From positions 372,001 to 436,000 of the forward strand of contig NZ_CP099997.1 in the NCBI RefSeq assembly GCF_024138145.1: 64,000 nucleotides of DNA, in the 5' to 3' direction. Under the pieces are notes generated by a model, which saw only the letters and a program-made list of their open reading frames with translations, searched no databases and had not been told where the DNA came from. The position numbers were made by a program, and so were the translations under genes. The stretch comes from Natronosalvus halobius (GTDB lineage Archaea > Halobacteriota > Halobacteria > Halobacteriales > Natrialbaceae). Shown here piece by piece: positions 1 to 15,737 of this stretch (the stretch's first letter is position 1; every line of letters starts with the position of its first letter).

Positions 1-2
1 TC

Positions 3-425
3 GAGTTCAAACGCCGGTCCGACGGTTCGTTCGTGCTCATGGAGGTGAACCCGAAGTTCTGGGCGTCGTACGCGCTGGCCAGCGAGCGCGGCTACCGATT
101 CGCCTCGACGATGGTCGCCTCCGCTCTCGGCCTGAACGTCGACATACCGGTCAGGACCCTCGAAACGGTCGACGAAATGGTATTTCCGCTTCGGGAACTC
201 CAGTACTGCGTTCGGCAACCGACCCGAAGCGAAATCTCGGCCGCTGCCAGGACGGTACTGACCCCAGGTGCGAAGTGGAGCCTCGACTGGACCGACCCCA
301 TCGCCTGGCTGATGCCACCCGTCGCCGCGATGGAACGAGTCACCGACGTAGAGACTCGACTCGAGGCCGCCGTCGAGACCGTAACCGGCCGCCGATCGCG
401 GAACGTCAGGGAGGATCGACGATGA
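3..425 (+). CDS. ATP-grasp carboxylate-amine ligase-like protein, C-terminal part (partial gene)
   Basis: The gene starts before the window. The frame is open from base 3 to the TGA at 423-425 and leaves 140 residues. Near the left edge (residues 11-20) is the ATP-grasp signature VLMEVNPKFW, whose Glu and Asn normally hold Mg-ATP in the active site. The complete ligase at 13164-14366 has the matching LLEINPRFW, so the two are probably distant paralogues. Family members join a carboxylate to an amine with ATP. The substrate here is unknown, and the glycan context suggests modification of a sugar or amino acid. The stop overlaps the next start by ATGA, so the three first genes are probably co-translated. 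Confidence 0.75.
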   Translation, partial: EFKRRSDGSFVLMEVNPKFWASYALASERGYRFASTMVASALGLNVDIPVRTLETVDEMVFPLRELQYCVRQPTRSEISAAARTVLTPGAKWSLDWTDPIAWLMPPVAAMERVTDVETRLEAAVETVTGRRSRNVREDRR

Positions 426-464
426 CGGGTATCAGTGAGAACCGAATCGACGATGACGGGTATC
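415..464. repeat. 19-bp direct repeat across a start codon
   Basis: The 19 bases ATCGACGATGACGGGTATC occur at 415-433 and again, identical, at 446-464. Each copy contains an ATG. The first copy spans the stop of the upstream ligase gene and the start of the small gene at 422. The period is 31 bp, not a multiple of three, so the second ATG lies in another frame. Confidence 0.9.
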
Positions 465-670
465 TGCGAATCGATCGTGAACCCTACACTGGTCGCTCTA
501 CCGAGGTCGACAGCCGGGTCGCACGTCTCGAGAGCACATCTGTCGGTCTCGAGCGTGCCTCCATCGGGTCATTCGTCCAGGACGGCGAGCGATTTTCGAA
601 CGTACCTCGGGGAGTGACCACCGACCGGAAATCGCTGAGAGACGGCCAGAAGGGGCGTGGTAGTGCATGA
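422..670 (+). CDS. Small acidic protein of unknown function, coupled to both neighbours
   Basis: This is an 82-residue protein with no recognised family. Its ATG overlaps the stop of the upstream ATP-grasp gene (ATGA at 422-425), and its TGA overlaps the start of the downstream membrane-protein gene (ATGA at 667-670). Overlaps at both ends are typical of translationally coupled genes and are the main reason to accept it. Third codon positions are mostly G or C, as in real genes here. The sequence is charged and lacks membrane segments or a signal peptide, so it is probably cytoplasmic. It could be a small partner of the ligase or the membrane protein. Function is not known, and a chance frame cannot be fully excluded. 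Confidence 0.6.
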   Translation: MTGISENRIDDDGYLRIDREPYTGRSTEVDSRVARLESTSVGLERASIGSFVQDGERFSNVPRGVTTDRKSLRDGQKGRGSA

Positions 671-2496
671 AGACGATGTTCGACCGTGCCTACCTTGTTT
701 CGAAGTTATTCTTGATTCCCATCGCTGTCCTGGGCGTCGCTGGCCCATACGTCGTCGGTCGCGTGAACCTCTCTATCCTGGGACTCTACCTGGCCCTGCC
801 GATGACGCTGGCCGTCGTCGTACTGTGGCGCGGAGGGAACCGTCGCGACCGAGAACCGGTCGGATGGATTGCCGTCGACTGGCGCGTGTTCTCCATCGGT
901 TTTCACCTCGTCGTCTCCAGCCTCGTCGTTTCGCTTGCGATTTACGATGTCCGTCCTCTCGCGTTCTTCGTCGGACTCGCCGTCCTGTACGGACTGATCA
1001 TCGTGTTGATCTGGTTGCCTAACCTCGCCCCCAGACGCACGCCGGTCTGCCTGTACCACATGGTCGTTGCCTTCGCGCTCACCGTGTTCAGCGTGACGTT
1101 GAAGTATGACTTTTTTATCGGGAACACGGATTTGACCGTTCACGTCTCGCTGATCGATTCGCTCGTCGAAACCGGTGCGCCGGTGTCGTTGGAACTGTAC
1201 GAACCGTTTCAGCTGTGGCACGTGTACGCGGCGACGACGCACCAGCTGCTGGGCGGTTACTTGACGACCCACCGAACGGTGTACGTGCTCAGCGGGGTGC
1301 TGTTCGGAGCCGGCGTCCTCGCAGCGTACGGATTCGGACGGCGGGTCACGCTGAACGAACGCGTGGCGCTCCTGACGGCGCTGTTCACAATATTTCACCC
1401 GTTCTATATCTTCTACGGAATGTACTCGATTCCGCGGAGCGTCACCTCAATTGTCTTTCTTGCGCTCCTCATCACCCTCCTCGGCCGGACGGCCCCCGGT
1501 ATGCGCCTCGCTGGCCTGGTGTTTCTCGTCGCAATCGTCGTTTATCACCCCGTCTCTATTCCGTTCGTGTTCATCATCATGACGATCGTTTACGCGGTCG
1601 AACGAATCGTCAGGCGCTCGTCTGCGGTCGAGACCCAACCGCCGACCGTCGATTCCTTCACGATGGTAGCCACGGGACTGGTGACGCTCACCTACTGGCT
1701 GTACGCGGCCGAACCCCTGGTCGAAACGATCCTCGGAGCACTGACGAGCGCCGCATCGGGTTCTCGAACCGAACCGCCGCCGCAGGGGGTCGTTGCCAGT
1801 CCGTGGGCGGAGGTTGCAAACTACGTCCCGTACTCGTTTTTCATCTTCTTCATGCTCCTCGGTGCATTGCTGTGGCTCCGGGACGACACGCGCGAGTGGA
1901 TCGCCACCGGCGTTATCGGCATCTCCGCGCTGCTGCTCGTTCCTCTCTCCGTCCCGGGACCCACACTCCTCCTCGAGGGTCTCGCCGGGATCAACGTCAA
2001 CCGGTTCGTTCACTACACGTACATGCTCTTCGCACTGACGGGGGCCATCGGCGCGTATCGACTGTTCTCACGGGGCGGGTTCAAACTGTTCGTCGTTCTC
2101 GTCCTCCTGCTATCGCTCTTCGGCTTCACCGCGGTCTCGAACGACTTCGTCGCGAGGGACAACCCCGCCGTCGAGCGGCCGTTCTACACTTACTACCTGA
2201 CCGAGCAGGAACGCCAGTCGTACGATGATCTCGACGCGATGTACGACGGGGTGATCGAAACCGATAGACCGACGTGTCGGTACATGGGCGAAATGCTCGA
2301 CGCCGAGTGCGTCGTGGTCGACGCCAGCACGGAGAATGCGATGTTCGCGGAAGCAGAGAGCGTACTGATACGAGACGGCGAACTCGAGCGCCGTCCGTTG
2401 CAGTTCACGGCGTACGTCGACGAGGAGATTCCGCTCGAGAACCTGGCTGAGCGTAACCGCGTGTACGACTCCGGTTCGGTCACGTACTACCGGTAG
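667..2496 (+). CDS. Large multi-pass membrane protein, possible GT-C-type glycosyltransferase
   Basis: The protein has 609 residues, with about 12-13 hydrophobic segments from residue 10 to about 500, then a soluble C-terminal region of about 110 residues that probably faces outside. A loop after the fourth or fifth segment contains a conserved-looking acidic motif (FFIGNTDLTVH, about residues 148-158), followed by a Trp-His pair (LWHVY). This layout resembles GT-C lipid-linked-sugar transferases, where an acidic residue in the first outer loop is catalytic. The assignment is from shape and context only. It follows the coupled ligase and small gene by an ATGA overlap and lies in a surface-glycan island. 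It could instead be a polymerase or an unrelated membrane protein. Confidence 0.7.
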   Translation: MKTMFDRAYLVSKLFLIPIAVLGVAGPYVVGRVNLSILGLYLALPMTLAVVVLWRGGNRRDREPVGWIAVDWRVFSIGFHLVVSSLVVSLAIYDVRPLAFFVGLAVLYGLIIVLIWLPNLAPRRTPVCLYHMVVAFALTVFSVTLKYDFFIGNTDLTVHVSLIDSLVETGAPVSLELYEPFQLWHVYAATTHQLLGGYLTTHRTVYVLSGVLFGAGVLAAYGFGRRVTLNERVALLTALFTIFHPFYIFYGMYSIPRSVTSIVFLALLITLLGRTAPGMRLAGLVFLVAIVVYHPVSIPFVFIIMTIVYAVERIVRRSSAVETQPPTVDSFTMVATGLVTLTYWLYAAEPLVETILGALTSAASGSRTEPPPQGVVASPWAEVANYVPYSFFIFFMLLGALLWLRDDTREWIATGVIGISALLLVPLSVPGPTLLLEGLAGINVNRFVHYTYMLFALTGAIGAYRLFSRGGFKLFVVLVLLLSLFGFTAVSNDFVARDNPAVERPFYTYYLTEQERQSYDDLDAMYDGVIETDRPTCRYMGEMLDAECVVVDASTENAMFAEAESVLIRDGELERRPLQFTAYVDEEIPLENLAERNRVYDSGSVTYYR

Positions 2497-2567
2497 TGCG
2501 GCTCTCTCGTCTCGAGGAGCGACTAACAGCGTCCCTTTCCGCCTCGAGGAACGACGACTTTGGCCGC

Positions 2568-4127
2568 TCACTCGACCGTCCAGGAGTACCAGTCCCCGTT
2601 TCGATAGATCGAGAGTCGTTCCTCGTCAGCATCCGGATCCGTCCAGGCGACGAGGACTCCCTCACGCCCGTGATCGTGCCAATCGCCGTCGTCGGCCGGA
2701 TTCGACGACCCGTTGGCCCCGAGTCCGTCGATGACCGTTCGAACGCCCGTCGAAACGTCCCCTGGAACGTTTTCGACGACGACGTCTGGCACGTCGATTT
2801 CGAGTCGTCCGACCGAATCACCGGTCTCGAGAGTGACGTCCCGGACGACACCGCCTCTTCCCGATTCGAAACGTATTGGTCGCTCGGAGTCGTATCGACC
2901 GCCGATCACGCGGCAGTTCTGGGGGCCCCCGTTGAATCGTATCGGATACACGTCGCCGGTGAGCGAACACGAACAATCCAGAAACGCCGTCTCGTCCCTG
3001 GCCACGGTGATCGCGTCTTCCGTGACGTTGGAGTTCTTTTCGCCAAAGAACGTGCAGTCTCGAAACGTCACCAGGCCGTCGTCGCCTTCGCCGTCCTCGT
3101 TGACGACCGCGATCCGTCGATCCGCGTCGGATCCGAACCGAGAGCCGGTTATCGTGACTGACGCGCCTGAAGGCGCAACCTCGAGCACTGGCCGTGATCC
3201 CTCGGCGTCGTTGTACCCGTAGCAGTTCTCGACCCAGCAGTCGCCGTCACGAAGCCAGTAGCCGCGGGCGTTGGACAGCTCAGAATCGCGGACCCAGACG
3301 ACGCTGTCGCGAACGACGCCGCCGATTCGAACGTTCGAAATGTCGTTGTCGATAGCCGTACAGTTCTCGATGACGACCGACCCGTTCGAACAGTAGAATC
3401 CGTTGTCGGCGCAGTTCCGGACCAGACTGTGCGTGATCGTTGCGACCGCGTTGTCGGTCGTCTCGACGTAGACACCCACGCCTGGCCCCCCATCGACGAC
3501 GCAGTCGTAGATTTGTCCACGAGAGTCTTCCATCCCCATCAGTTCGATCATGCGCCGACCGCTCGTCGGCCTTCCCGCTGTCACGAGATGTTCGAAAATC
3601 ACGTCTCCGGTCGCGTACGAGACGACAGCGGAACCCGCGATGCCGTCTTCGTCTTCGACGTTCCCGAAATCGAACTCGAAGCCGCCGATGTAGACGTTGT
3701 GTCCGCTGAACGACCGGGACGGACCCAGTGCAAATACCTTAGAATCGTAGACGCCGACTCCCTCGAACGTCGAGGACGGTTCGATCGTCGCGTTGTAGCC
3801 GAGTAATCCGAAGTCTCGAAACGAATCGTGTTCGAATCCGGCGTCCATCCGGTACGTCCCGGGTGGAAAGAGGACGAGTAGTTCGTCGCCGCCTTCCTCG
3901 GCGATAATCTCCTCGAGAACTGGTGTGACGTCGTCCTCGCCGGTCGGGTCCGCTCCGTAGTCGACGACGTCGACGTGGCGCCAGTGATCCGCGAACGTCG
4001 CCCTGTCGGCATCGGGTGCTGGTACGTTCCCGTCCTCGTCTATTTCTGCACCCTGGACGGACAGTACGTAGCCAGCGAGGGTCGGTGGGAGGCCACCGAC
4101 TGCCGTCAGGTACTTCCGGCGATTCAT
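2568..4127 (-). CDS. Exported right-handed beta-helix protein (pectate-lyase-like)
   Basis: The protein has 519 residues. It begins MNRRKYLTAVGG, a twin-arginine-like signal followed by a hydrophobic stretch, so export by Tat is likely. After residue 50 comes VVDYGADPTGEDD, which is the usual opening of the Pectate_lyase_3/glycosidase beta-helix domain. It is followed by many short repeats with Asn-Cys and Val-Glu-Asn turns, typical of parallel beta-helix coils. Such proteins bind or cleave polysaccharides. No lipobox is visible. It is convergent with the membrane-protein gene at 667 and divergent from a FemAB-like gene, inside the glycan island. A role in binding or trimming surface polysaccharide is inferred; the substrate is not known. 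Confidence 0.75.
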   Translation of the reverse strand: MNRRKYLTAVGGLPPTLAGYVLSVQGAEIDEDGNVPAPDADRATFADHWRHVDVVDYGADPTGEDDVTPVLEEIIAEEGGDELLVLFPPGTYRMDAGFEHDSFRDFGLLGYNATIEPSSTFEGVGVYDSKVFALGPSRSFSGHNVYIGGFEFDFGNVEDEDGIAGSAVVSYATGDVIFEHLVTAGRPTSGRRMIELMGMEDSRGQIYDCVVDGGPGVGVYVETTDNAVATITHSLVRNCADNGFYCSNGSVVIENCTAIDNDISNVRIGGVVRDSVVWVRDSELSNARGYWLRDGDCWVENCYGYNDAEGSRPVLEVAPSGASVTITGSRFGSDADRRIAVVNEDGEGDDGLVTFRDCTFFGEKNSNVTEDAITVARDETAFLDCSCSLTGDVYPIRFNGGPQNCRVIGGRYDSERPIRFESGRGGVVRDVTLETGDSVGRLEIDVPDVVVENVPGDVSTGVRTVIDGLGANGSSNPADDGDWHDHGREGVLVAWTDPDADEERLSIYRNGDWYSWTVE

Positions 4128-4439
4128 ACTCCGCGAGACGCCACGCGGAGGGATACCAATTTCTTAGAAGCGTGGCTAGATGACCAGTTCAATTCGACAT
4201 TTCGACAGAATATTCGCTACTGGTCTCGTTTTTTAACACGATATCCGACATGATCGGTGAGTGCACGAATGACGAAAGTGCTGCTGCTGCTCGAGTCCAG
4301 GATCAGGAAGACGGCGACGCGCCTCCGACGCTGGAGTAATAGCTCATTCCGATCCCGTACCGGTAGGATAACAAAGGCTATCTCGGACACACGTATCAGC
4401 GACTCGGCTAGCGCCGTTTCGGTCTCGAGAAAACTAGAG
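4128..4439. promoter_or_regulatory. Divergent intergenic region with a 7-bp inverted repeat
   Basis: These 312 bases separate the beta-helix gene (minus) from the FemAB-like gene (plus). Directly before the minus-strand ATG lies an inverted repeat CTCCGCG-8 bases-CGCGGAG at 4129-4150, which could fold in the 5-prime leader or bind a regulator. The stretch is AT-richer around 4160-4250 and probably carries promoters for both sides. A frame from 4257 runs into the downstream gene, but its residues look non-coding and were not accepted. Confidence 0.5.
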
Positions 4440-5480
4440 ATGAGTGTTAGAATTTCGGTATTGAACCCCGCCGATCGTGAGTCGTGGAACGAATACGTCG
4501 AGCGGTCACCGCAAGGATCGGTCTTCCATCGGTACGATGCGCTCAGAACGCAGGCGGCGTACTCAGACGCCAGGATATACCCTCTCGTCGGGTACAAAGG
4601 CGAGGAACCGATCGGGATCTTTCCCGTTTTCGAAAGCCACACGGGCCCCGTCGCGTTCGCGTTCTCTCCACCGCACGGGTTACACGTACCCGCTCTCGGT
4701 CCCGCGTTGCTCAACATGGACCAGCTCAAACAACGCAAACGGGAGAAGCGCCACAGTCGGTTCATCGATGGGTGTTTCGAGTGGATCGACCGCGAACTCG
4801 AGCCGACGTACACCTCGATTCGAACGTCGTGGCGGTACGACGACATGCGACCGTTCAAGTGGAACGGATTCGATGTCCACCCGAGTTACACGTACGTCGT
4901 CGACCTCGAGACCGACGAAGAGACGTTGATCCGTCGGTTCAGTCGAACGACGCGTCGAACCATCCGGAATCATCTCGACGACGAGTACACGGTGACAGTT
5001 GGCGGTGTCGACGCGGCCAGGTGGATCATGGAGCAAGTAGTCGGTCGATTCGAAGAGCAAGGAAAGACGGCGACGATGTCCCCGTCGTTCGTGGTCGAAC
5101 TCTACGAGCGACTTCCTGAAGGTGTCGTGAACCCGTACGTGCTCTCCGTCGACGGAGACCCCGTCACCGGTACGATTCTCCTCGTGGACGGGGAGACGGC
5201 CCACCGGTGGCAAGGTGGAACAAAGCCGGGGACCTCACTCCCAGCGAACGAACTCCTCGAGTGGCGGATGCTCACCGATGCGATGGAACGCGGTGTCAGT
5301 GAGTACGAAATTGTCGACGCCAACATCCCGCGAATTAACGAGTGGAAGTCGAAGTACAATCCGAACGTCCGAACGTACTACACGATGCAACGAACCGGTC
5401 AGGGAATGGCCGCTGCCGTTCAGCTGTATCTCAGACTTCGAGATCGTAATGGACTCGTCACGAAACTCGCACCCGGCTGA
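4440..5480 (+). CDS. FemAB/GNAT-like N-acyltransferase
   Basis: The protein has 346 residues from the ATG at 4440. This start was chosen because the paralogue at 7253-8353 begins with a matching block (SVFHRY plus the same spacing), and codons upstream look non-coding. The first half carries the N-terminal FemAB-like region. The second half (about 170-330) carries the acetyltransferase fold with ETAHRWQGG and a terminal KSKYNP stretch typical of GNAT_6/FemAB relatives. In bacteria, FemAB enzymes add amino acids from aminoacyl-tRNA to peptidoglycan precursors, and relatives sit in exopolysaccharide loci. Archaea have no murein, so here it probably modifies a glycan or lipid carrier. The donor and acceptor are unknown. 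Confidence 0.8.
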   Translation: MSVRISVLNPADRESWNEYVERSPQGSVFHRYDALRTQAAYSDARIYPLVGYKGEEPIGIFPVFESHTGPVAFAFSPPHGLHVPALGPALLNMDQLKQRKREKRHSRFIDGCFEWIDRELEPTYTSIRTSWRYDDMRPFKWNGFDVHPSYTYVVDLETDEETLIRRFSRTTRRTIRNHLDDEYTVTVGGVDAARWIMEQVVGRFEEQGKTATMSPSFVVELYERLPEGVVNPYVLSVDGDPVTGTILLVDGETAHRWQGGTKPGTSLPANELLEWRMLTDAMERGVSEYEIVDANIPRINEWKSKYNPNVRTYYTMQRTGQGMAAAVQLYLRLRDRNGLVTKLAPG

Positions 5481-5669
5481 TAGAACGGCAACAGAAGTGC
5501 TGTCGACGTGATTGCCAGTTCGAGTCGGTCGAGAATAGTATATTCCCGGCCTGACCTGGTCTCTGCCCCCCATGGTACCCGCGAAAAGCGATCGACTCGG
5601 TAGTCCTCGGCAACTCGTCTCTTCGTCGTCTCTCGACGGTGCCGTTTCTTGTGTGCCGACTCCACCCTC

Positions 5670-7196
5670 TCAATCGTGGAACGTCGGAATCCGCTCGAGC
5701 AGTTCGAGCAGGTGCCGTTCGATCGTCTTCGGTAACGCCGTCGCGGTCGCGATTTCTTCGAGGTCGTCGCTCGTAATCGCGCCGGTCATGACCGAGGCGA
5801 CGGCGAACACGACCGCACCGAACGGTGGGACGATCACGAGCGAGAGGATCGACGACTCGATCGTCCACGAAACGAGAAATATCGACGTGGCTGATACGAT
5901 GATCGTGACGAACGTAGCCCCCCAGCGGATGCCCGCGAGCGGTCGGTATCCCAATCGGCGAGCGATGGCCGTCTGGAACACGACGAGACTCCCGTAGCCG
6001 ATAGACGTCGCGATGGCGGCCCCGATCATTCCGTAGCTCGGAATCAATAACAGGTTCAACAGTAAATTAATCAGCGAACTGGCGCCCGTCGCGAGGAGGA
6101 GCGGACGAAGCGATCGCCTGGCCTGGTTGATGGCGAGGGACGGTCTGGCGACCGCGAACCCGAGTACGCCCGGGAGCAGCAACAACAGGGGCGTGATTGC
6201 CGGTCGAAACGACTCGCCCAGGTATAGCGGAACGAAGTCGGCTGCCAGCGCAGCGAGGCCGAGTACCAGCAACGTCGTAAACAGGAACACGTAGCGAGTA
6301 ACGATCTGAGATTGCCGCTCGATAGCGTCGATATCCCCGCGCTCCCAGAGGTGTGAAACCCGCTGCAATAGTGCGTACTGAACGGCGATCGGCGCGAACC
6401 AAAGAACTTCGGCGATCACCAGCGCACCTTTGTAGTATCCCACGAACTCGTCGGATAGCCAGACCTGGAGCAAGAGCACGTCGACGTGGTACAGGGACGT
6501 CAAAAAGAGGAAGAAGCCGATCGTACTCACGGTGTAGGTGAGTATCTGTCGTTTCGGAAGGCCCACATCGCTCGGGAAGAGGGCCTGGCGAAAAGGTAAC
6601 AGACGACTGACGATGCCCAATCCGAACACGATAGTGAACGCACTGGAGACGATGGATCCGAGCAATACGCCCTCGACGCCGTATCCGAGGTAGACGAACG
6701 TGATCGCGAACGCGACGAATAGCGTCTCCTTGATTACTTTTAGCGGTTCCGAGCGAGACTCCAGTTGGAGTCCCATGAGCGTCCACAGGACGTGCGTCGC
6801 CAGCTGGTTGAAAACGAGGTACGCGGCAAGCACGTAGAAGAGTGACGTAAACGCCGGTCCGAACGTGGATGCTGCGAGACCCGTGTACGCCGCCAGAGAG
6901 AGTAGCGTAGCGGCGAGGAGCCCAATCACGAACACCGCTCTGAACACGTACCCGAAAATGGCAGCTTGCCACGCCGCGTCCGACCGCTCGGAGATGTACT
7001 TTCGAACCGTATCGCCCGTTCCCGAGACCAGAACGATTCCGACGACGGAGTAGACGGACAGGACGAGCGCGTACCGACCGTACTCGACTGGTCCGAGAAG
7101 CCGAACGAGAACTGGTGTGAACCCCACTCCGAGTAGCAAGATGTATGCCTTCGAAACGATGATCGAGACGACCGCGGATGAAAATGAATTGCGCAT
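5670..7196 (-). CDS. Polysaccharide flippase (Wzx/RfbX-like, MOP superfamily)
   Basis: The protein has 508 residues and about 14 transmembrane segments over nearly its whole length, the normal size and pattern of O-antigen/teichoic-acid export proteins. The N-terminus has the family-type opening of a first helix followed by a PVEYGRYALVLSV motif at the start of helix 2 (the GxxxFGxYxL element). It would turn lipid-linked oligosaccharide from the inner to the outer face of the membrane. It is the last gene of a minus-strand run with deacetylase, formyltransferase and FemAB-like protein, 56 bases after the FemAB-like gene, which supports a shared pathway. The C-terminus after about residue 470 is cytoplasmic. 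Confidence 0.9.
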   Translation of the reverse strand: MRNSFSSAVVSIIVSKAYILLLGVGFTPVLVRLLGPVEYGRYALVLSVYSVVGIVLVSGTGDTVRKYISERSDAAWQAAIFGYVFRAVFVIGLLAATLLSLAAYTGLAASTFGPAFTSLFYVLAAYLVFNQLATHVLWTLMGLQLESRSEPLKVIKETLFVAFAITFVYLGYGVEGVLLGSIVSSAFTIVFGLGIVSRLLPFRQALFPSDVGLPKRQILTYTVSTIGFFLFLTSLYHVDVLLLQVWLSDEFVGYYKGALVIAEVLWFAPIAVQYALLQRVSHLWERGDIDAIERQSQIVTRYVFLFTTLLVLGLAALAADFVPLYLGESFRPAITPLLLLLPGVLGFAVARPSLAINQARRSLRPLLLATGASSLINLLLNLLLIPSYGMIGAAIATSIGYGSLVVFQTAIARRLGYRPLAGIRWGATFVTIIVSATSIFLVSWTIESSILSLVIVPPFGAVVFAVASVMTGAITSDDLEEIATATALPKTIERHLLELLERIPTFHD

Positions 7197-7252
7197 GGTT
7201 CAGACTGGAGCGTGCGTTCGTCTCGGTGACTGCGTGCTACTCGGAAGTCTGA

Positions 7253-8353
7253 TCACGAGAAAATCTGACCGACGACTTTGGATTTGATTTCTGCCGTTCT
7301 CTCTCGTACGGCCTCTGGGGCGACCGGCGTAGATGACGTGTACCACTGGTGAGCGACGCGTCCGCCGTTCAGTGCCGCCAGGGCGGCCCGGGGATACCCC
7401 CGTTCCCAGGTGAGACAGGGGGCCGCGCGGGTAGCGAAGCGTTCCTTGAACCGAAACAGTCCGTTTCGAAAGTCGGGCTCCGCTCCGCGGAAGTTGTACG
7501 TCTTGTAACCGTTTTCGATGGCCCACTTAATTGCGTATTCGTGGATTAGTTCCGATGCGTTGAACTGAAAGTGATCTTCCGTGACAGCTGAACGAAGGTA
7601 GTGGACCGTCGATTGCTCATCGTCGAGCACGAACAGCATCAGCCCACATCGTTTGCCGTTGACGTGGAGTGAGAACACCTTTACTCGCTCGGGAAGGGTG
7701 GCGAGTTCGACGAAGAACGACCGAGGTAACACCGCTTCGCCGACTCGCTCTGCGACCTCGGTGTAGTTCTCGTGGACTTCGCTGAGAACCTCTTCGGTCA
7801 ACTCCTCGTCGACGACCGTTCCATCGTGATCGTGACCTCGTCTGATTGCCCGTCGCCTTGAGCTGTCCATCTCTATGAGGAGCGTCTCCCAATCATGTGT
7901 GGTGTCGAGGAGCATGTGACAGTTATTAATTCGGAGGCTATACCCGTGCTCCAAGAAGTGATCGTGATATCGAACGTAGGGCGAATCGAGATTATCGATT
8001 TGATGGAAGCGAACCGTTCCTTCACAGAGTCGAGCAGTCGACTTAAATATCAAATCAAGTGCTGCTTCCTCGTCGCCCATAGCGATTGGTCCACCCGACC
8101 CAGGTCTTATACTGTAGAGCCGTCGAATTGGGACTGACCCGATCGAACCGACGAAGTTCGGCGAAATAGCGATGGGATTACCCTTCTTCTCGACGAGTAG
8201 ATGACGTGGCTCGAGCGGTTGGCCCCGTTCGATTGCGCGAAGCCAGCCGTAACGATGAAAGACGCTTCCCAGGTCGGCCTGTTCGACGACGTGGTTCCAC
8301 TGGTTTCGATCGGCCTGTTCGATGCTGTCGAGACGCTTTACAGTGAGGGACAT
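7253..8353 (-). CDS. FemAB/GNAT-like N-acyltransferase (second copy)
   Basis: The protein has 366 residues and the same architecture as the gene at 4440: an N-terminal block with DLGSVFHRYGWLRAIE at about residues 27-42, and a C-terminal GNAT_6-type domain (about 170-340) ending in a YNFRGAEP...RFKERF signature. Proteins of this kind occur in bacterial exosortase-linked exopolysaccharide loci, where they accompany a DUF3473-type deacetylase, as here. The likely role is transfer of an acyl or aminoacyl group to a sugar amine exposed by the deacetylase. This role is inferred from context. It shares the minus-strand operon with the formyltransferase (148-base gap) and the flippase (56-base gap). 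Confidence 0.82.
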   Translation of the reverse strand: MSLTVKRLDSIEQADRNQWNHVVEQADLGSVFHRYGWLRAIERGQPLEPRHLLVEKKGNPIAISPNFVGSIGSVPIRRLYSIRPGSGGPIAMGDEEAALDLIFKSTARLCEGTVRFHQIDNLDSPYVRYHDHFLEHGYSLRINNCHMLLDTTHDWETLLIEMDSSRRRAIRRGHDHDGTVVDEELTEEVLSEVHENYTEVAERVGEAVLPRSFFVELATLPERVKVFSLHVNGKRCGLMLFVLDDEQSTVHYLRSAVTEDHFQFNASELIHEYAIKWAIENGYKTYNFRGAEPDFRNGLFRFKERFATRAAPCLTWERGYPRAALAALNGGRVAHQWYTSSTPVAPEAVRERTAEIKSKVVGQIFS

Positions 8354-8501
8354 AGGGCTCGTTACGGTCGGTCAACGACCCACGGGGAGGCAGAAATAAC
8401 TTCGTCCGAATCCTCAGAGTAGTGTGACGTTTTCGACTGTGGCTCGAGGATGAATCGAGGGAAGGTGGTACTCGAAATCGGCGAGTGCCGGCTGGTCGAG
8501 A

Positions 8502-9284
8502 CTAGATGAATCGATTCCCGCGACGCCGAAACTCCCGTCGGTCGTCCCGGGTCGGAAACGAGTAGTACTCGCCCTCTTCGAGATTGTTGGGCCTCGTTTC
8601 GATAGTTCCGTCGGCGACTTGATCGATGACGTCTACCGCGACGGTTGGCCCAACCTCTGTCAGTTTGAGATAGACGTCGTGCATCGTGTCATTGGGCCGT
8701 ACCTCGTACTTCCGTTGCACGATGATATCGCCGGAATCGAACTCCGGCGTCATGTAATGGGCGGTGACGCCGTTCTCGTCCTCCCCGTGATAGAGCACCC
8801 AGAACGACGTCGACAGGCCGCGATACTTCGGCAGGAGGGACCCGTGCACGTTGATCGCACCGTCCTTCGGAATCTCCAGTAGGTCTTCTTCCATTCGTTG
8901 ACCACAGGCGATCGATAGAATGAGATCCGGTTCCGATTCTCGGATCTCACCGACAAACGCCTCGTCGTTGACGTCGTTCACTTCTTCCACCGGAACGTCG
9001 TAAGCCGCCGCTAGCGATCGAACTGAGTGAAATCGCCCCGTGGTCCGATAGACTGGTCCCGTCGGCAACCTGGCGGCGATTTTCCCCGCTGCATACCGGA
9101 GGCCAAACCGAAAAAACGCCGACGGACCGAACATTTGGAACCGGCCTCGGACCTCCTCGAGCGCCGATCGTTGCATCGGCGCGAGAACGACCTTCGAGAG
9201 GGCCTCGGATCGTTCGGCGAACACCGGCTCGAGGTACCGCGGCATGTAGATGGGGCCGTCCTGCGTGAAGAGGATCACGTCCAT
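8502..9284 (-). CDS. Formyltransferase family protein (sugar N-formyltransferase candidate)
   Basis: The protein has 260 residues and belongs to the 10-formyltetrahydrofolate-dependent transferase fold of methionyl-tRNA formyltransferase and ArnA. The catalytic triad is present: Asn and His in INVHGSLLPKYRG (about 142-154) and Asp in FDSGDIIVQ (about 178-186). It lacks the C-terminal tRNA-binding domain of Fmt, and archaea do not formylate initiator tRNA, so a sugar amine is a likelier acceptor, as in WbkC or VioF. It overlaps the deacetylase gene by 10 bases (9275-9284). That fits a two-step exchange of N-acetyl for N-formyl on one sugar, which is an inference. Confidence 0.85.
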   Translation of the reverse strand: MDVILFTQDGPIYMPRYLEPVFAERSEALSKVVLAPMQRSALEEVRGRFQMFGPSAFFRFGLRYAAGKIAARLPTGPVYRTTGRFHSVRSLAAAYDVPVEEVNDVNDEAFVGEIRESEPDLILSIACGQRMEEDLLEIPKDGAINVHGSLLPKYRGLSTSFWVLYHGEDENGVTAHYMTPEFDSGDIIVQRKYEVRPNDTMHDVYLKLTEVGPTVAVDVIDQVADGTIETRPNNLEEGEYYSFPTRDDRREFRRRGNRFI

Positions 9285-10090
9285 GCGTACGCCACCGGTT
9301 CGTAGAGGTCGGACACTTTCTCGAACGTGTACCCGTTTCGTCTCAGCGTCGAGACGAACCCGGTGAGTATGTCGACGGATCGATCCATGTTCCGGGTCAT
9401 GAGCGTGCGCTTTGGTTGTGGCAGGTGATCGTGAAACTCGGTCCTCCAGAAATCCTGCAGGTGGGAGTCGTACACTAGCGGCGTGGGAAGGGGCGTGTGT
9501 TTCAGTAGGGAGATATATGGACGCCCGAGGAGTTTAAGATAGTTCTGGGAGATCGGAATCCGGAGCCCAGGGACGGCCGCAAACGGGATCTCGAGGAGTT
9601 GATCGGCTTCCGGCGGGACGTACGGCGTGAGCGGGGCGTGGATATTGTTGTATACGCCGGGGCGATAGGAGGGGAAGACGCTGGAACTGAACTCGAACCC
9701 CGCCCGCTCGAGTTCAGCCCACTCGCCCTGGACGATGTTGCCCTGCGGTGCCCGGTACCCACGGGGTGGTTCACCGAAGTGTGACTCGAATGCTGCTATC
9801 CCGCGCTGGATTTCAGTCTCGAATTCGTACGATTTCGTCATGTCGTGTTGATACGAGTGAAGGTGGAATTCGGCGTCTAGCTCCCGCCGAAGGCGCTCGA
9901 CGATCCAGGGATGATTCTCAATCGTAATCCCGACGGCGAAGACGCTAATCGGGACGTCCAGCTGCTTGATGAGGGCGATATAGTCGTCTACGTGGTCGAA
10001 CGTCGGATTGGGACTCTCGTCGCCCGGGATACACCAATCTTCCTCGAGATCGAGTGTCATGCAGGCTACGGGTTGACTACTGCTCGACAT
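9275..10090 (-). CDS. Polysaccharide deacetylase (NodB homology domain)
   Basis: The protein has 271 residues. NodB motifs are visible: the catalytic/metal Asp region TLDLEEDW (about residues 12-19), the metal-binding HSYQH (HSxxH, about 98-102) and RAPQGN (about 129-134). The enzyme removes N-acetyl groups from hexosamines. The length and the DLEEDW start recall the DUF3473-containing deacetylases of exopolysaccharide loci. No signal peptide is seen, so it probably acts in the cytoplasm on a lipid-linked or nucleotide sugar. It is the first gene of the minus-strand operon that continues into formyltransferase, FemAB-like protein and flippase. Confidence 0.88.
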   Translation of the reverse strand: MSSSSQPVACMTLDLEEDWCIPGDESPNPTFDHVDDYIALIKQLDVPISVFAVGITIENHPWIVERLRRELDAEFHLHSYQHDMTKSYEFETEIQRGIAAFESHFGEPPRGYRAPQGNIVQGEWAELERAGFEFSSSVFPSYRPGVYNNIHAPLTPYVPPEADQLLEIPFAAVPGLRIPISQNYLKLLGRPYISLLKHTPLPTPLVYDSHLQDFWRTEFHDHLPQPKRTLMTRNMDRSVDILTGFVSTLRRNGYTFEKVSDLYEPVAYAWT

Positions 10091-10114
10091 GGAGTCTCTA
10101 TCCGAAATTGAAGG

Positions 10115-10128
10115 GCATAAATTTTTAG
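10115..10128 (-). promoter_or_regulatory. TATA box for the deacetylase operon
   Basis: On the minus strand an A/T run (CTAAAAATTTATGC) lies 25-38 bases before the deacetylase ATG at 10090. This is the expected place for an archaeal TATA box of a leaderless mRNA. Confidence 0.6.
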
Positions 10129-10385
10129 CGTATAATTCCTGATTACCGAAGGGGTTGCTTTACTGTTGCAGGTCAATATAACCGGAACGGATCTGGGCGG
10201 TAAACGAGCCTCACCTCTGTTCTCCGACTGGCACTCGACTATTACATTCTGGATACGAGTCGACCAGCGGGGATATGACGCACAGACGGTGGGGTCAAAT
10301 GACTTTCAACAGTGGATTACTCGAGAGGCGCCACAAATACGGTCGCTATAGCTTTTACCGCGTTTCTCGTTCGATACGTCCACAG

Positions 10386-10655
10386 ATGAGACCGCATCGA
10401 ATGCGGTTCGTTCTCGTTCAGTGTTCGTGGCTGCTGGGAACGGTACTCGTACTCTCAGTGACCGGGCTCTACTCGTACGGCTTGTTTATTCTGTTCTCCG
10501 CACTCGGCGTCGCCATCCTGACGAATCTGCTCAATCTGTCACACGTGCAGTCGCGTTGGATCGATCGGCCTCGAGTCCTCACCAGGGTCTTGTTGGCGGG
10601 TGCCACAGCAGTTCTCTGTTATCGTTTCGTCAGCCTGTTCGTCTTGTCACCGTAG
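10386..10655 (+). CDS. Small membrane protein of unknown function
   Basis: The protein has 89 residues from the ATG at 10386, with three hydrophobic segments (about 9-27, 29-45 and 63-85) and a short Arg-rich loop between the second and third. The frame is open further up, to ATGs at 10275 and 10299. Those extra residues are Arg-rich and not acidic, and a TATA-like TATAGCTTTTA lies at 10347-10357, about 29-39 bases before 10386, so the shorter form is preferred. Small proteins like this accompany DUF1616 genes in haloarchaeal surface-glycan loci. No function can be assigned. Confidence 0.6.
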   Translation: MRPHRMRFVLVQCSWLLGTVLVLSVTGLYSYGLFILFSALGVAILTNLLNLSHVQSRWIDRPRVLTRVLLAGATAVLCYRFVSLFVLSP

Positions 10656-10797
10656 TCAGCGCCCGTCGAGCGTCGATCGATAAGTCGAATTGATACCTCG
10701 CGTCTGGTTCGGTTCGTCTCGTTACGTGTGACTCGACACAGCACCACTTCGCTGGAAGCAACTGGAAATCTGCAAAAGTCATCGCTTCGAACGATCT

Positions 10798-11661
10798 CTA
10801 TCGATACTCGAGAACCCACTTTCCGTCGTCTACCGCGAAGGCCTCGAACGAGATCCGGCGGTCGAGACCGACTGCGAGGCCGACCGCGAGAAAGGAGGCG
10901 ACCGGGTGGTCGAACTGATTCAGGGGGCCGAAGACGTTCCCCGAAATAGTGATCGTGACAGTTCCTCCGTCCGGTCGCACGATCGCGTCGGCATCCGTGA
11001 TAAACTCAAAACGCTGTCGGAGCGAATCTATCAATTGTTCGACCAGAAGTTCCGGGGAGTTTGCGACCGGTTCGTCCAGTGCCCGTTCGAACTCCTGGAA
11101 CAGCGTTGCCCCGGTCGGCTCGAGGACGAGTCCACGTTCGCCCGAGTCGACAATAGAGAATCCAGCCGCGTCCTGGACGCCGCTGTCGACGTCGGCCGGG
11201 ACGAATAACCGAGCTCCGGACTCGACACCGCTCGGGTTCGGCACGTAGATCCGCTCGGTACTCGAACCGAATGTCGTCGTGATCGCCTCGAGGTTTGTCG
11301 CACACGTCCCGTAGACCTGGGACCCATCTCTGGCATCGATCGACCGAGTACCAGTCATCCCGTACGTGAGAACGCCGGCGAACAGTCCGATCCCCCCGAG
11401 CGAGAAGAGGACTTCGCGGCCTGCCGATACGACAAACCCAGCGGCGAAACAGAACACGCCGATGGCGACGAATCCCGCTATCGTAAGTCGCTCGCGCGTC
11501 GTTCGAGCGCCGACAGGGAACCGTACCGGACGATCACGAACGACGGAGGTTCCGGCACCATCAGCTGGAGCAGTTCCTCCTTCGAAGCCCCGCTTATCAC
11601 CGCTCTGGTCGAACGCAGCGGACGATGCATCCGGCGTGCTATCGTATTTTTCCGGGCTCAT
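10798..11661 (-). CDS. Haloarchaeal conserved protein with two membrane helices
   Basis: The protein has 287 residues from the ATG at 11661. An ATG at 11787 would add 42 residues of non-haloarchaeal composition, so the later start is preferred. The first 70 residues are disordered and acidic. Two transmembrane helices follow at about 76-98 and 100-118, separated by a tight turn. A soluble domain of about 165 residues comes next, with an alternating strand-helix pattern and a conserved-looking GTVTITISGNVFG segment. I do not recognise a named domain with certainty; it resembles haloarchaeal DUF-type proteins found beside DUF1616 genes. It could be a membrane-anchored accessory factor of surface-glycan assembly. 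Confidence 0.65.
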   Translation of the reverse strand: MSPEKYDSTPDASSAAFDQSGDKRGFEGGTAPADGAGTSVVRDRPVRFPVGARTTRERLTIAGFVAIGVFCFAAGFVVSAGREVLFSLGGIGLFAGVLTYGMTGTRSIDARDGSQVYGTCATNLEAITTTFGSSTERIYVPNPSGVESGARLFVPADVDSGVQDAAGFSIVDSGERGLVLEPTGATLFQEFERALDEPVANSPELLVEQLIDSLRQRFEFITDADAIVRPDGGTVTITISGNVFGPLNQFDHPVASFLAVGLAVGLDRRISFEAFAVDDGKWVLEYR

Positions 11662-12053
11662 ATGGGGTTTCTCGAACGAGACGGCGGTTCGTTCGAATGG
11701 GAGGACTCGTCGATGCACGACCGTGCCACCTGAAGCCAGTGAGGGACGAACAGGCGTTGCGGGCACGAACCAGTCTCGTCCTGCCACCGAGGGACGTGCA
11801 AGTGATTGCGGCCGTCTCTGGAGGTCGTCACAGTGTCTCTTCTCAAACTACCGAGGACGACTGCTTTAAATTGCTGGTCGTCAATCACGGTTTACCTGTC
11901 GTTAACGGGTCTTAACGGACGATTTCTCACAGTATAGCTGCGTCCATTCTGCGTATCACGATAGCGTTCGCCGGTTCAACGATCATCGGTTCCAGACTGT
12001 CCGGTCAACCGTCCATCCGATTTTAATCGCGGTTCGTAAAAGAGACAGAGAGG
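11662..12053. promoter_or_regulatory. Divergent intergenic region with a TATA box
   Basis: No gene is supported in these 392 bases. A good TATA-like CGATTTTAAT lies at 12018-12027, 27-36 bases before the ATG at 12054, giving a leaderless mRNA for the DUF1616 gene. An ACGGG/CTTAACGG repeat near 11897-11918 is the only other patterning seen. Confidence 0.55.
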
Positions 12054-13070
12054 ATGATTCGTTCGCCCGTCCGACCGCACGTTCGTCGACTGCCGGCGGA
12101 CCTGACGGTCGTTCTCGCTCTCACGGTACTGACGAACGTCGTCGTGTTTGCCCCGGTGATACGGGAAACGCCCCTTCGTGTTGCGTTCGGCCTGGTCTTC
12201 ATCCTCGTTGCTCCAGGATACGCGCTGGTTGCTCTCGTGTTTCCGGAGCGCGGGCCAGTAGACCGATTCGACGATGTCAACGGGGAGATGCGGTCACCGA
12301 CGACCATTCTCGAACGCCCTCGGTCGTGGTGGGGAACGATCGACGGCCCGGAACGCATCGCGTTTTCGATCGCTTCGAGCGCCGTGATCGCCCCGGTGGT
12401 CGGCTTTATCGTGGTAACCGTTCAGGGATCGTTCCAGTTTGGACCGACGTTCGTCGCCGTCTCGGCCGTTACCGTCGCCCTCACTGTCGGCGCAATCTGG
12501 AGACGCCTGGCGCTCTCACCGGACGATCGGTTTCGAGTTCCATATGGCGAGTGGACGGACACCCTTCGTGCGGCGGTGTTCGATCCCAACTCTCGCGGTT
12601 CAGCGATCCTGAACGTTGCACTAGTCTGTACGATACTGCTCGTGATCGCGAGCGTTGGATACGCGGCCACGGCACTTCCACAGGACGACGAGTACTCCAC
12701 GATATACGTTCTCTCCGAAGGCGATGCAGATTCGGTTCTCGAGATCCCGCCAGGAGAAAGTCGAGAGGTCGTCGTGGGCGTCGACAACCGCGAACGACGC
12801 GCGACGACGTACACGGTCGTCGTCGTCGAGCAGGAGATGGACGTCTCTGAAAACGAAACCCGAGTCGTGGACCAGCGCGAACTCGATCGGTTCGAGTCGA
12901 CGACCGATCACGGTGAGACGTGGCGTCTCGCTCACGATATCGAGCCGACCGCGGACGGCGAGGTACGCATCGTCTGGTTGCTGTACGTCGACGGCGACGC
13001 TCCTGAGGAACCGTCGATCGAGTCCGCAGCGTATCGGGTGCACCTGTGGGTCGAGGAAGGCGATTCGTGA
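12054..13070 (+). CDS. DUF1616 family membrane protein
   Basis: The protein has 338 residues. Four transmembrane helices occupy about 17-35, 43-62, 101-122 and 127-147, with the DUF1616-type segment FILVAPGYALVALVFPERG (about 49-67) between the first and second pairs. A fifth helix (about 192-212) precedes an outer domain of about 125 residues that looks like an immunoglobulin-type beta domain (VVVGVDNRERRATTYTVVVVEQ). DUF1616 proteins are common beside haloarchaeal glycosylation and archaeosortase-linked genes, but their activity is not established. A leaderless promoter is visible upstream. The gene converges on the ATP-grasp ligase gene. Confidence 0.85.
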   Translation: MIRSPVRPHVRRLPADLTVVLALTVLTNVVVFAPVIRETPLRVAFGLVFILVAPGYALVALVFPERGPVDRFDDVNGEMRSPTTILERPRSWWGTIDGPERIAFSIASSAVIAPVVGFIVVTVQGSFQFGPTFVAVSAVTVALTVGAIWRRLALSPDDRFRVPYGEWTDTLRAAVFDPNSRGSAILNVALVCTILLVIASVGYAATALPQDDEYSTIYVLSEGDADSVLEIPPGESREVVVGVDNRERRATTYTVVVVEQEMDVSENETRVVDQRELDRFESTTDHGETWRLAHDIEPTADGEVRIVWLLYVDGDAPEEPSIESAAYRVHLWVEEGDS

Positions 13071-13163
13071 ACAGTCGAGGTTTGGCGAAAGGGCGAACTC
13101 GTTACCGGCTTGGATTCCTTCCTACCGGCGTTGACTCCTCACTACCCTACTTCGACCCCCTCT

Positions 13164-14366
13164 CTACCCCGCCCTGTTTCGGAGGACCCGACAGAGTTCA
13201 CGCGAAAACGGAACGGGGTCGTCCAGCCGAAAGACGTCGAAGTGAGGCGTCCGGACACACGACTCGAGAATGTCTCGTGCCGTGTCCAGGACCGGGGGTC
13301 GATCGACGAGTATCGGCTCGTCTCGTCGAAGGCTGAGCAGGTAGTGGACCTCGCCGTAGAGGTAGTGACTCCTGACGCCACGTTCGTACTTCGCGCTGAT
13401 CGATGATTTTCGGCCAAGCGCTTGCAGCCAGTAGTACGCCGGAAAGTTGGCGCCCGCCCGGACCGCACAGGGGAGCGATTGCCAGAACCGCGGGTTGATC
13501 TCGAGCAGCTTGTACTCGCCGGTGGTGGCGTCCTTCGCGTACTCGATGCACGCGATGCCGTGCCAGTCGAGGCTATCTAATAGCCTCCGGCCGACCGCCT
13601 CCAGTTTTGAATCGTGTATGGATTCCCGATAGACGCCACCACCGCCTGTGTAGGACGTCCCGCGGATCTGTCTGTGCTGGAACGTCGCGACGGCCTCGCC
13701 ATGGTCGTACAGCGCACCAAACACGTACTGGTCGTCGTGTCGAACGTACTCCTGGACGATTGGTTCGTGTCGCATGATGGCACGAATCGTCGCTTTGTCG
13801 GGTTCGTCCCCGGGCTCGACGTAGACAACGTCTTTTTCGACCGCGGACGTGTTCGAGGCGAGCGTCGGCGTAAGTTCCGCGGTGAGAAGATTGTACCTTG
13901 ATTTGATGACTGATGGATCGTCCCACCGGTCGACATCGTCGAGGCATCGCGTTTCCGGAACTGGAACGCCGGCCTCGCGAGCGGCCTCGTAGAGTTTCGT
14001 TCGGTCGTTGACGACCTCGAGCGCTTCAGTCGGCGGCGCGATCACCGACGCGTATCGTTCGAACTCGTCTCGGTAGGTCGCGAACACGTAGGGATCGGCC
14101 GGGCGTAGCGGGAGGATCGCCCGAACGTCCGGTCGTGCGGCGATTCCCTTCAGTGCGTCTTTGTACGCGACGAGGTCGTCGTCGGGGGAACAGATCTGGA
14201 TTTGTTCGTCACAGAATCGCGATCCGCCAGCGGGGACGTCTTCGCGTTCCGAGGCGACGATCGTGTGGACGCCGCGCTCGGCGAGCGAGCGAACGCACGT
14301 GTAGCAAGCGGGGTTGTATTTCGCGGGAAGAAGGACCGTTTCCCGGCCCGACGCGTCGGTGACCAT
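13164..14366 (-). CDS. ATP-grasp carboxylate-amine ligase-like protein
   Basis: The protein has 400 residues with the three ATP-grasp subdomains: an N-terminal Rossmann-like region (1-115), a central lid with VIKSRYN and VQEYV (about 165-225), and a C-terminal catalytic part with CIEYAKD and LLEINPRFW (about 290-315), which holds the Mg-binding Glu and Asn. The family joins carboxylates to amines or thiols using ATP. The paralogue at the left window edge has the same C-terminal signature. Its place between DUF1616 and GT4 genes suggests it makes or attaches an amino-acid substituent of a surface glycan (inference). A TATA-like GTTAATACC on the minus strand (14391-14399) lies about 25-33 bases before the start. 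Confidence 0.85.
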   Translation of the reverse strand: MVTDASGRETVLLPAKYNPACYTCVRSLAERGVHTIVASEREDVPAGGSRFCDEQIQICSPDDDLVAYKDALKGIAARPDVRAILPLRPADPYVFATYRDEFERYASVIAPPTEALEVVNDRTKLYEAAREAGVPVPETRCLDDVDRWDDPSVIKSRYNLLTAELTPTLASNTSAVEKDVVYVEPGDEPDKATIRAIMRHEPIVQEYVRHDDQYVFGALYDHGEAVATFQHRQIRGTSYTGGGGVYRESIHDSKLEAVGRRLLDSLDWHGIACIEYAKDATTGEYKLLEINPRFWQSLPCAVRAGANFPAYYWLQALGRKSSISAKYERGVRSHYLYGEVHYLLSLRRDEPILVDRPPVLDTARDILESCVRTPHFDVFRLDDPVPFSRELCRVLRNRAG

Positions 14367-14618
14367 CGGGAGGATACGAGAGGGTGCAACGGTATTAACG
14401 GCGACAACCGTTCGTCTGCGTAATTACGTGTTTCTGTCGTCTCCAGCGAGCGCGTAGACGGGTGTTACATTCCGTCTCGATGATGAACGAGGGAAGTACC
14501 GTCGACGCCTTCAGTAGCCGGTCTCGCTTCGCCGTGGAAAGTGGCGACCCCACTTCTCTCCGTTCACCGTAGGGATGTAATGATCCACCTCGAACGACGG
14601 CCGGAATCACAAATACCC

Positions 14619-14628
14619 TATATTTTTA
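14619..14628 (+). promoter_or_regulatory. TATA box for the GT4 gene
   Basis: TATATTTTTA lies 27-36 bases before the ATG at 14655, in the position expected for a leaderless archaeal transcript. Confidence 0.65.
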
Positions 14629-14654
14629 CCCCCTCGCTGGCATCTACAGCGTAG

Positions 14655-15737
14655 ATGCGAATCGCGTTCGTCTCCTTCGAAACCGCCCACCACCGAGAGA
14701 CGGAGACGAACGAACGCTTTCGGACCATTCTTGAACTCCTCACCGACCGCGGTCACGACATCCACGTTTGCTGTGCCCAGTTCTGGCCAGGCGAGGCGTC
14801 CACGCTCGAGCGGGACGAGGTCACCTACCACGGCGTCTCGACCGGCCTCGAAGCGCGCCAATCGTTCCTGCTTCGCCTCCCGTTCGTCCTCCGATCGATC
14901 GGCCCGGACGTGATCCACACGAGCGCCGACCCCGCGGGCCAGGTGCGGGCGGCCAACTGGGGGGCGACGCTGGCTCGATCCCCGCTGGTCCTCGAGTGGT
15001 ACGGCGCGGGGATCGGCGTCGACGGTGCCGTCGGCATCCCGGACGACCGTGGCCATCGCTACGCGGCCCAGAAGGCGGACCGCATCGTCACGCCGTCGCG
15101 GATGGTCCGTACGTGGGTCAGAGAGCGGGGCGCTTCGGGCGACCGGGTCGACGTCGTCCCGAATCCGATCGACATCGACCGGATCGAGGCGACGCCGCCG
15201 GGCGACCGGGTCGACGTCGTCTACGCCCGGCGCCTCGACGAGGGGGCGAACCTCGAGAGCCTGCTCCTGGGACTCGCGGAACTCCGGGACCGCAACTGGC
15301 ACACCCTCGTCCTCGGCGACGGACCACAGCGAGGGATGTACGAGCAACTCGCGCAGGACCTGCGGATCGACGACCGGGTAACCTTTGCCGGAGAGACGAG
15401 TCGTGACGAGCGCATCGCGGCATACCGGAGCGCGCACGTCTTCGCCCAGACGGCCACCGAGTGCGTCTTCCCGACCGAGTTCGCCTGGGCGCTGGCCGCG
15501 GGCTGTGTCGGCATCGTCGAGTACCACGTCGACTCCGCGGCCCACGAACTCGTCGAGGGCTGGGAACGGGGCTTCCGGACCACGAGCGAGCAGGAACTCG
15601 CCGACGCCATTCTCGAGGCCGGTGACCTCGAGCACCGGACCTACGACGAGTCGTTCGCGAATCTGGACCGAGAGGCGGTGCTGGCGACGTATCTCGAGAC
15701 CTATCGGGAGCTCCAGGACGGACGCGGGCTGCTTTAG
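14655..15737 (+). CDS. Glycosyltransferase family 4 protein
   Basis: The protein has 360 residues in a GT-B fold: an N-terminal acceptor domain with the opening MRIAFVSFETAHHRETETN, then the NDP-sugar domain from about residue 155 (VDVVPNPIDIDRIE, then YARRLDEGANLESLL). The acidic pair usual near the donor-phosphate loop (EX7E) is not clear; the region reads ECVFPTEFAWALAAG, so donor binding may be unusual. The enzyme would transfer a sugar from a nucleotide donor to a lipid-linked glycan. It is the last gene of the surface-glycan island. A 22-bp in-frame repeat (15137-15158 and 15200-15221) codes for GDRVDVV twice. Confidence 0.85.
   Translation: MRIAFVSFETAHHRETETNERFRTILELLTDRGHDIHVCCAQFWPGEASTLERDEVTYHGVSTGLEARQSFLLRLPFVLRSIGPDVIHTSADPAGQVRAANWGATLARSPLVLEWYGAGIGVDGAVGIPDDRGHRYAAQKADRIVTPSRMVRTWVRERGASGDRVDVVPNPIDIDRIEATPPGDRVDVVYARRLDEGANLESLLLGLAELRDRNWHTLVLGDGPQRGMYEQLAQDLRIDDRVTFAGETSRDERIAAYRSAHVFAQTATECVFPTEFAWALAAGCVGIVEYHVDSAAHELVEGWERGFRTTSEQELADAILEAGDLEHRTYDESFANLDREAVLATYLETYRELQDGRGLL
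15137..15221. repeat. 22-bp in-frame direct repeat inside the GT4 gene
   Basis: Identical 22-base copies at 15137-15158 and 15200-15221 are 63 bases apart, so both read as GDRVDVV. They span the first nucleotide-sugar-domain strand and the next strand. Confidence 0.85.

Follow-up and report, generated by a model that had tools for sequence, protein, structure and literature searches.

A two-part haloarchaeal locus with candidate FemX-type aminoacyl transferases and a portable deacetylase-formyltransferase pair

A putative surface-glycan island of Natronosalvus halobius comprises two separable modules that form no single pathway, and whose co-occurrence in genomes is not beyond chance. With about even confidence, we read it as a two-part locus in which a Fem core would aminoacylate a surface glycan from aminoacyl-tRNA, while a deacetylase-formyltransferase pair (DAC and FMT) would exchange N-acetyl for N-formyl groups. 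A preliminary description of this DNA had proposed that amines freed on one glycan are then formylated or aminoacylated. Judging from sequence, both the aminoacyl transfer it suggested and the coupling of deacetylase to formyltransferase are probably correct, yet the two would belong to separate modules, not one route.

The window, meaning the whole stretch of 64,000 nucleotides that was analysed, covers positions 372001-436000 in a 3.85-Mb genome, and the neighbourhood was extended into the 14 kb upstream. ORF checking and Pfam matches bore out the genes named in the preliminary description, all of which are open frames at the positions given there and belong to the families assigned to them. 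Homologues of the island genes were located in haloarchaea. The island reads as follows:

1..425, + strand: ATP-grasp protein 1, C-terminal part; retained together with Fem2 in relatives
667..2496, + strand: 609-aa membrane protein with ~12 TM segments; recurrent core gene
2568..4127, - strand: beta-helix / pectate-lyase-like protein; here seen in congeners only
4440..5480, + strand: Fem1, FemABX-type (PF13480); invariant Lys inside an aromatic-Lys motif
5670..7196, - strand: Wzx-type flippase (PF01943/PF13440)
7253..8353, - strand: Fem2, FemX-fold aminoacyl transferase homologue (PF02388, PF13480, PF04339)
8502..9284, - strand: FMT, formyltransferase (PF00551, 1.7e-28); N-H-D triad and helical insertion at residues ~41-82
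9275..10090, - strand: DAC, NodB/CE4-fold deacetylase (PF01522, 3.9e-11); 10-bp overlap with FMT
10275..10655, + strand: small membrane protein, 126 aa; recurrent core gene
10798..11787, - strand: uncharacterised protein; recurrent core gene
12054..13070, + strand: DUF1616 membrane protein; recurrent core gene
13164..14366, - strand: ATP-grasp protein 2, carbamoyl-phosphate-synthetase-like group
14655..15737, + strand: GT4 glycosyltransferase; orthologues present in congeners

The first ATP-grasp gene had been assigned to the correct family but is not complete in the window: positions 3-425 cover no more than the last 140 residues of a 416-aa protein, and the gene starts 825 bp before the window. 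ATP-grasp 2 alone scores below the Pfam cut-off, and a joint profile of both ATP-grasp proteins matched carbamoyl-phosphate synthetase at 4.8e-17. The Fem1 frame is open from 4257 or 4440 to 5480, and the previously chosen start at 4440 agrees with the starts of its orthologues. The 14 kb upstream hold a hexapeptide acyltransferase-type protein, a Gfo/Idh protein, two UDP-sugar dehydrogenases, a DUF354 protein, a WecB-type epimerase and a methyltransferase; this gene set is compatible with a supply of acetylated amino sugars. The upstream WecB, dehydrogenase, Gfo/Idh and methyltransferase genes had been overlooked, as had the 609-aa, DUF1616 and beta-helix proteins. The 609-aa protein has no relative in Pfam, NCBIfam or, by profile, the PDB; it carries many invariant residues and recurs in Fem loci. 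Two further upstream genes of 682 and 354 aa (L002:13532-15580 and 15887-16951) match no Pfam family and have relatives near other Fem loci. Elsewhere in the window, the product of 18112-20667 (- strand) joins a Mur-ligase-type and a pterin-binding domain in a FolC-FolP-like arrangement. It belongs to folate metabolism and is not a murein ligase, and folate would supply the formyl donor.

Profile searches and predicted folds suggest that Fem1 and Fem2 are aminoacyl-tRNA-type rather than acyl-CoA-type proteins, in agreement with the aminoacyl transfer suggested previously. Against PDB sequences, a profile of 25 aligned Fem2 homologues matched FemX at 3.6e-12, followed by Sbb17 and Sba18 of streptothricin biosynthesis; weak E-values came next for FemA and S. 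aureus FemX, and one match was at chance level. For Fem1, the corresponding search returned lipid II:glycine glycyltransferase at 1.2e-7 and, at 0.003-0.01, Sba18 and FemX; one unrelated protein scored about as well as these two. The predicted Fem2 model (pLDDT 87) adopts a double GNAT fold like that of Weissella viridescens FemX, its top Foldseek match with TM-scores of 0.68 (query) and 0.73 (target). Here FemX, Sbb17/Sba18, FemA and MprF-type domains rank ahead of tandem acyl-CoA GNATs. The streptothricin enzymes Sba18, Sbb17 and Orf11 also match the Fem2 fold, with target TM-scores of 0.82-0.85, although they share only about 17-18% identity with it and serve Streptomyces antibiotic biosynthesis; Orf11 glycylates streptothrisamine using Gly-tRNA (PMC12945691). 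The best NCBIfam match of Fem2 is the XrtA-associated FemAB model TIGR03019, at 46.8 bits and below its cut-off of 260.35.

Residue conservation refines this picture. F304 and K305 of FemX are essential for catalysis (PMC4964394), and the aligned F302-K303 of Fem2 is invariant in 25/25 homologues. Similarly, all 12 Fem1 homologues possess an aromatic-Lys pair (Trp/Tyr-Lys). A Phe-Lys pair of this kind may also be present in PF13480 proteins that are uncharacterised and differ in function. At the position of FemX Tyr254, a proposed tRNA contact, Fem2 homologues have Tyr (14/25) or His (10/25). In contrast to FemX, the murein-precursor contacts are not retained: K36 is replaced by V, I or L in 25/25 homologues, and R211 corresponds to Arg in 1/25. 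With neither contact retained, a non-murein amine acceptor is likely for Fem2, which, unlike FemX, occurs in a glycan locus of a host without murein. This argues against a murein-acting member of the family and not against a FemX mechanism. Overall, Fem1 and Fem2 look like FemX-type aminoacyl transferases with a different acceptor, whose tRNA dependence we infer from homology and predicted fold.

Fem2 is present in 114/391 sampled genomes of the class and in 39/86 genera. Across 20 Fem2 neighbourhoods, picked from the top-scoring homologues and thus not a random sample, the core set comprises ATP-grasp 1/2, the 609-aa 12-TM protein, Fem1, Fem2, the flippase, small ORFs and the DUF1616 protein; one or both ATP-grasp genes occur in 14 of the 20. 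The congeners G175 (L064) and G277 (L084) retain the core in the same gene order. Conservation in relatives holds for each module separately and not for the island as a whole. Other neighbours of Fem2 include a proline-dehydrogenase-family gene (cluster c1), found in most of loci L088-L096, and a GINT1_N-domain protein (glucosamine inositolphosphorylceramide transferase) in three loci (L100:12306-13388, with relatives in L097 and L102).

The complete Asn-His-Asp triad ascribed to FMT is present as N145-H147-D183 and is invariant in 13 paired homologues. The predicted FMT model (pLDDT 92) matches the fold of sugar N-formyltransferases and shows insertion helices at 41-71 and 75-82, which are absent from a set of haloarchaeal formyltransferases referred to here as insertion-less. 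The hydrophobic moment gave no support for this insertion as a membrane anchor. FMT shares PF00551 and the N-H-D triad with ArnA, its best PDB sequence match, and with other sugar N-formyltransferases, but differs from ArnA in having the helical insertion, in lacking an ArnA-like C-terminal domain and in its partner, a deacetylase instead of an aminotransferase. In DAC, the catalytic and metal-site motifs D14, D18, H78, H82, R113-x-P115 and H210 are invariant in 14 aligned homologues; bacterial homologues carry either D or E at the D18 position. Simple hydropathy indicated no TM segment or signal peptide in either protein. Pfam did not assign DUF3473 to DAC, whose best NCBIfam match is the XrtA/PEP-CTERM polysaccharide deacetylase TIGR03006 (53.7 bits, below the cut-off of 276.2).

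FMT adjoins a NodB-fold gene in 14 haloarchaeal genomes, either as DAC then FMT or as FMT then DAC, the latter with a different DAC subtype. Among GTDB contigs, a DAC homologue is adjacent in 16/16 loci with a near-full-length FMT match: two haloarchaeal loci (Halobellus and Halovenus), apparently from genomes included in the 14 above, and 14 bacterial loci. The latter are mainly from Bacteroidota and include Spirosoma, Larkinella, Fodinibius, Cytophagales/Cytophagaceae, other Bacteroidota and Prochlorococcus. The remaining 64 GTDB loci, with partial FMT matches, showed at most a weak NodB match, in 2 loci. Furthermore, FMT and DAC distances are strongly correlated (Mantel r=0.90 for 29 pairs, including one duplicate; r=0.95 for 15 haloarchaeal pairs, with the same duplicate), and 0/2000 permutations reached r in either case. 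Adjacency in haloarchaea and bacteria together with co-divergence upholds the coupling proposed earlier, and DAC-FMT is a portable two-gene module. Nine insertion-bearing FMTs (L067-L075, around 9.4-10.8 kb) stand without DAC nearby, three adjoining folD and six adjoining small membrane proteins of family c4, so the FMT subfamily is not always dependent on DAC. One pair, in G301 (L082), has transposase genes on either side of it on a short contig (3-335 and 9614-11014), which is consistent with mobility.

Sugar N-formyltransferases usually act after a PF01041 aminotransferase. We found PF01041 within 10 kb of 0/14 haloarchaeal pairs versus 6/7 insertion-less haloarchaeal FMTs (Fisher p=1.3e-4, an optimistic value because the genomes are related), and the 99%-complete pair genome G294 contains no PF01041 match at E<=1e-20. 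Around 10 haloarchaeal and 14 bacterial pair loci, the families in lists limited to 25 entries include GT4, GT2, epimerases and UDP-sugar dehydrogenases, with no PF01041 among them. The amine would therefore most simply be made by DAC, resulting in acetyl-to-formyl exchange, although an unlinked aminotransferase could be its source instead. The NodB fold also includes deformylases; removal of N-acetyl is the most likely activity of DAC, with deformylation as the alternative.

Three other explanations were weighed against the two-part reading. One of them, rather unlikely, casts the Fem-like proteins as ordinary GNAT acetyltransferases that modify sugars with acyl-CoA as donor. PF13480, named 'Acetyltransf_6', does match both Fem1 and Fem2, several plasmid homologues are publicly annotated 'GNAT', and tandem acyl-CoA GNATs occur among the lower fold matches. 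The best fold and profile matches, however, are aminoacyl-tRNA-dependent enzymes, every aligned Fem2 homologue keeps the catalytic pair of FemX, and other plasmid homologues carry the annotation 'peptidoglycan bridge formation glycyltransferase FemA/FemB family'. We consider it quite improbable that the pair follows the logic of ArnA then ArnD, whereby FMT would act on an amino nucleotide sugar, and the formyl group would later be taken off the lipid-linked sugar by the NodB-fold enzyme. ArnA is the closest solved relative of FMT and ArnD is itself a NodB-fold enzyme, but no ArnB-type PF01041 gene lies near the 14 haloarchaeal pairs or, at E<=1e-20, in G294, the NCBIfam models for DAC are the XrtA deacetylase and a PdaB-type model rather than ArnD, and ArnD is absent among the PDB profile matches of DAC; on this evidence the ArnA/ArnD reading is disfavoured.

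The single route of the preliminary description, in which DAC would free amines on one glycan for formylation by FMT or aminoacylation by Fem proteins before flipping, likewise has a low probability. Its genes are neighbours here and in the congener G175, yet Fem cores are common without the pair, most DAC-FMT pairs sit outside Fem loci, and Fem2 occurs in 4/14 pair genomes against an expected 4.1, a chance-level co-occurrence. Decay in the congener G277 also counts against it: the core aligns at about 88% identity, whereas DAC is absent altogether and FMT for the most part. What is left at this site is a 174-bp remnant of the FMT 3' end, at 76% identity and with single-base gaps, indicating that the pair was formerly present there and was lost while the core stayed. 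The same remnant led us to abandon the idea that the pair had recently entered the core, with G277 representing the empty site, and to prefer loss. G277 possesses a second pair elsewhere (L066), whose FMT is 51% identical to that of the window.

For the preferred two-part reading, we infer the reactions and their substrates, the attachment to a lipid and the timing with respect to flipping as follows. The core (ATP-grasp 1/2, Fem1, Fem2, the flippase, the 12-TM protein and the DUF1616 protein) would build and export a glycan. Using aminoacyl-tRNA as donor and following the FemX mechanism, in which Lys303 of Fem2 would stabilise the intermediate, Fem1 and Fem2 would transfer aminoacyl groups onto an amine of a precursor that is cytoplasmic and probably carried on a lipid. 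Additional amide bonds may be made by the ATP-grasp enzymes. On the cytoplasmic side, DAC would take the acetyl group off a hexosamine and FMT would formylate the amine thus freed, for a net conversion of N-acetyl to N-formyl.

Haloarchaeal walls offer precedents for amino-acid-bearing glycans. N-glycyl-glucosaminyl bridges are described for Halococcus morrhuae walls and a glutaminylglycan for the wall of Natronococcus occultus (PMC4187196). The N-glycyl-glucosamine of Halococcus morrhuae is a haloarchaeal product of the kind that Fem-type enzymes could make. The genus that includes G236 is presumed to be Halococcus because one of its genes is 92% identical to a gene on a named Halococcus plasmid. 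Among 10 genomes of the presumed Halococcus genus there was no PF02388 match, and remote profile matches only were found in 5 of the 10. We claim no link to the Halococcus wall because the presumed genus has no close Fem2 orthologue. Our search of the open-access literature returned nothing relevant on archaeal FemAB proteins or on the deacetylase-formyltransferase pair, and as far as we found neither Fem aminoacyl transfer nor an acetyl-formyl swap has been reported in archaea.

Tentatively, and with somewhat less than even confidence in the whole, we propose that archaea employ FemX-type, aminoacyl-tRNA-dependent aminoacylation of a non-murein surface glycan, together with a portable pair, common to Bacteroidota, Fodinibius and Prochlorococcus, that rewrites N-acetyl as N-formyl sugars and would provide N-formyl amino sugars without a dedicated aminotransferase. 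If this is true, it becomes testable how haloarchaea could attach amino acids to wall sugars (N-glycyl-glucosamine in Halococcus has been on record since 1979), and whether acetylated amino sugars become formylated after assembly as opposed to being built from amino nucleotide sugars. N-formylated glycans of bacteria and archaea would then have a simple genomic marker in the DAC-FMT pair.
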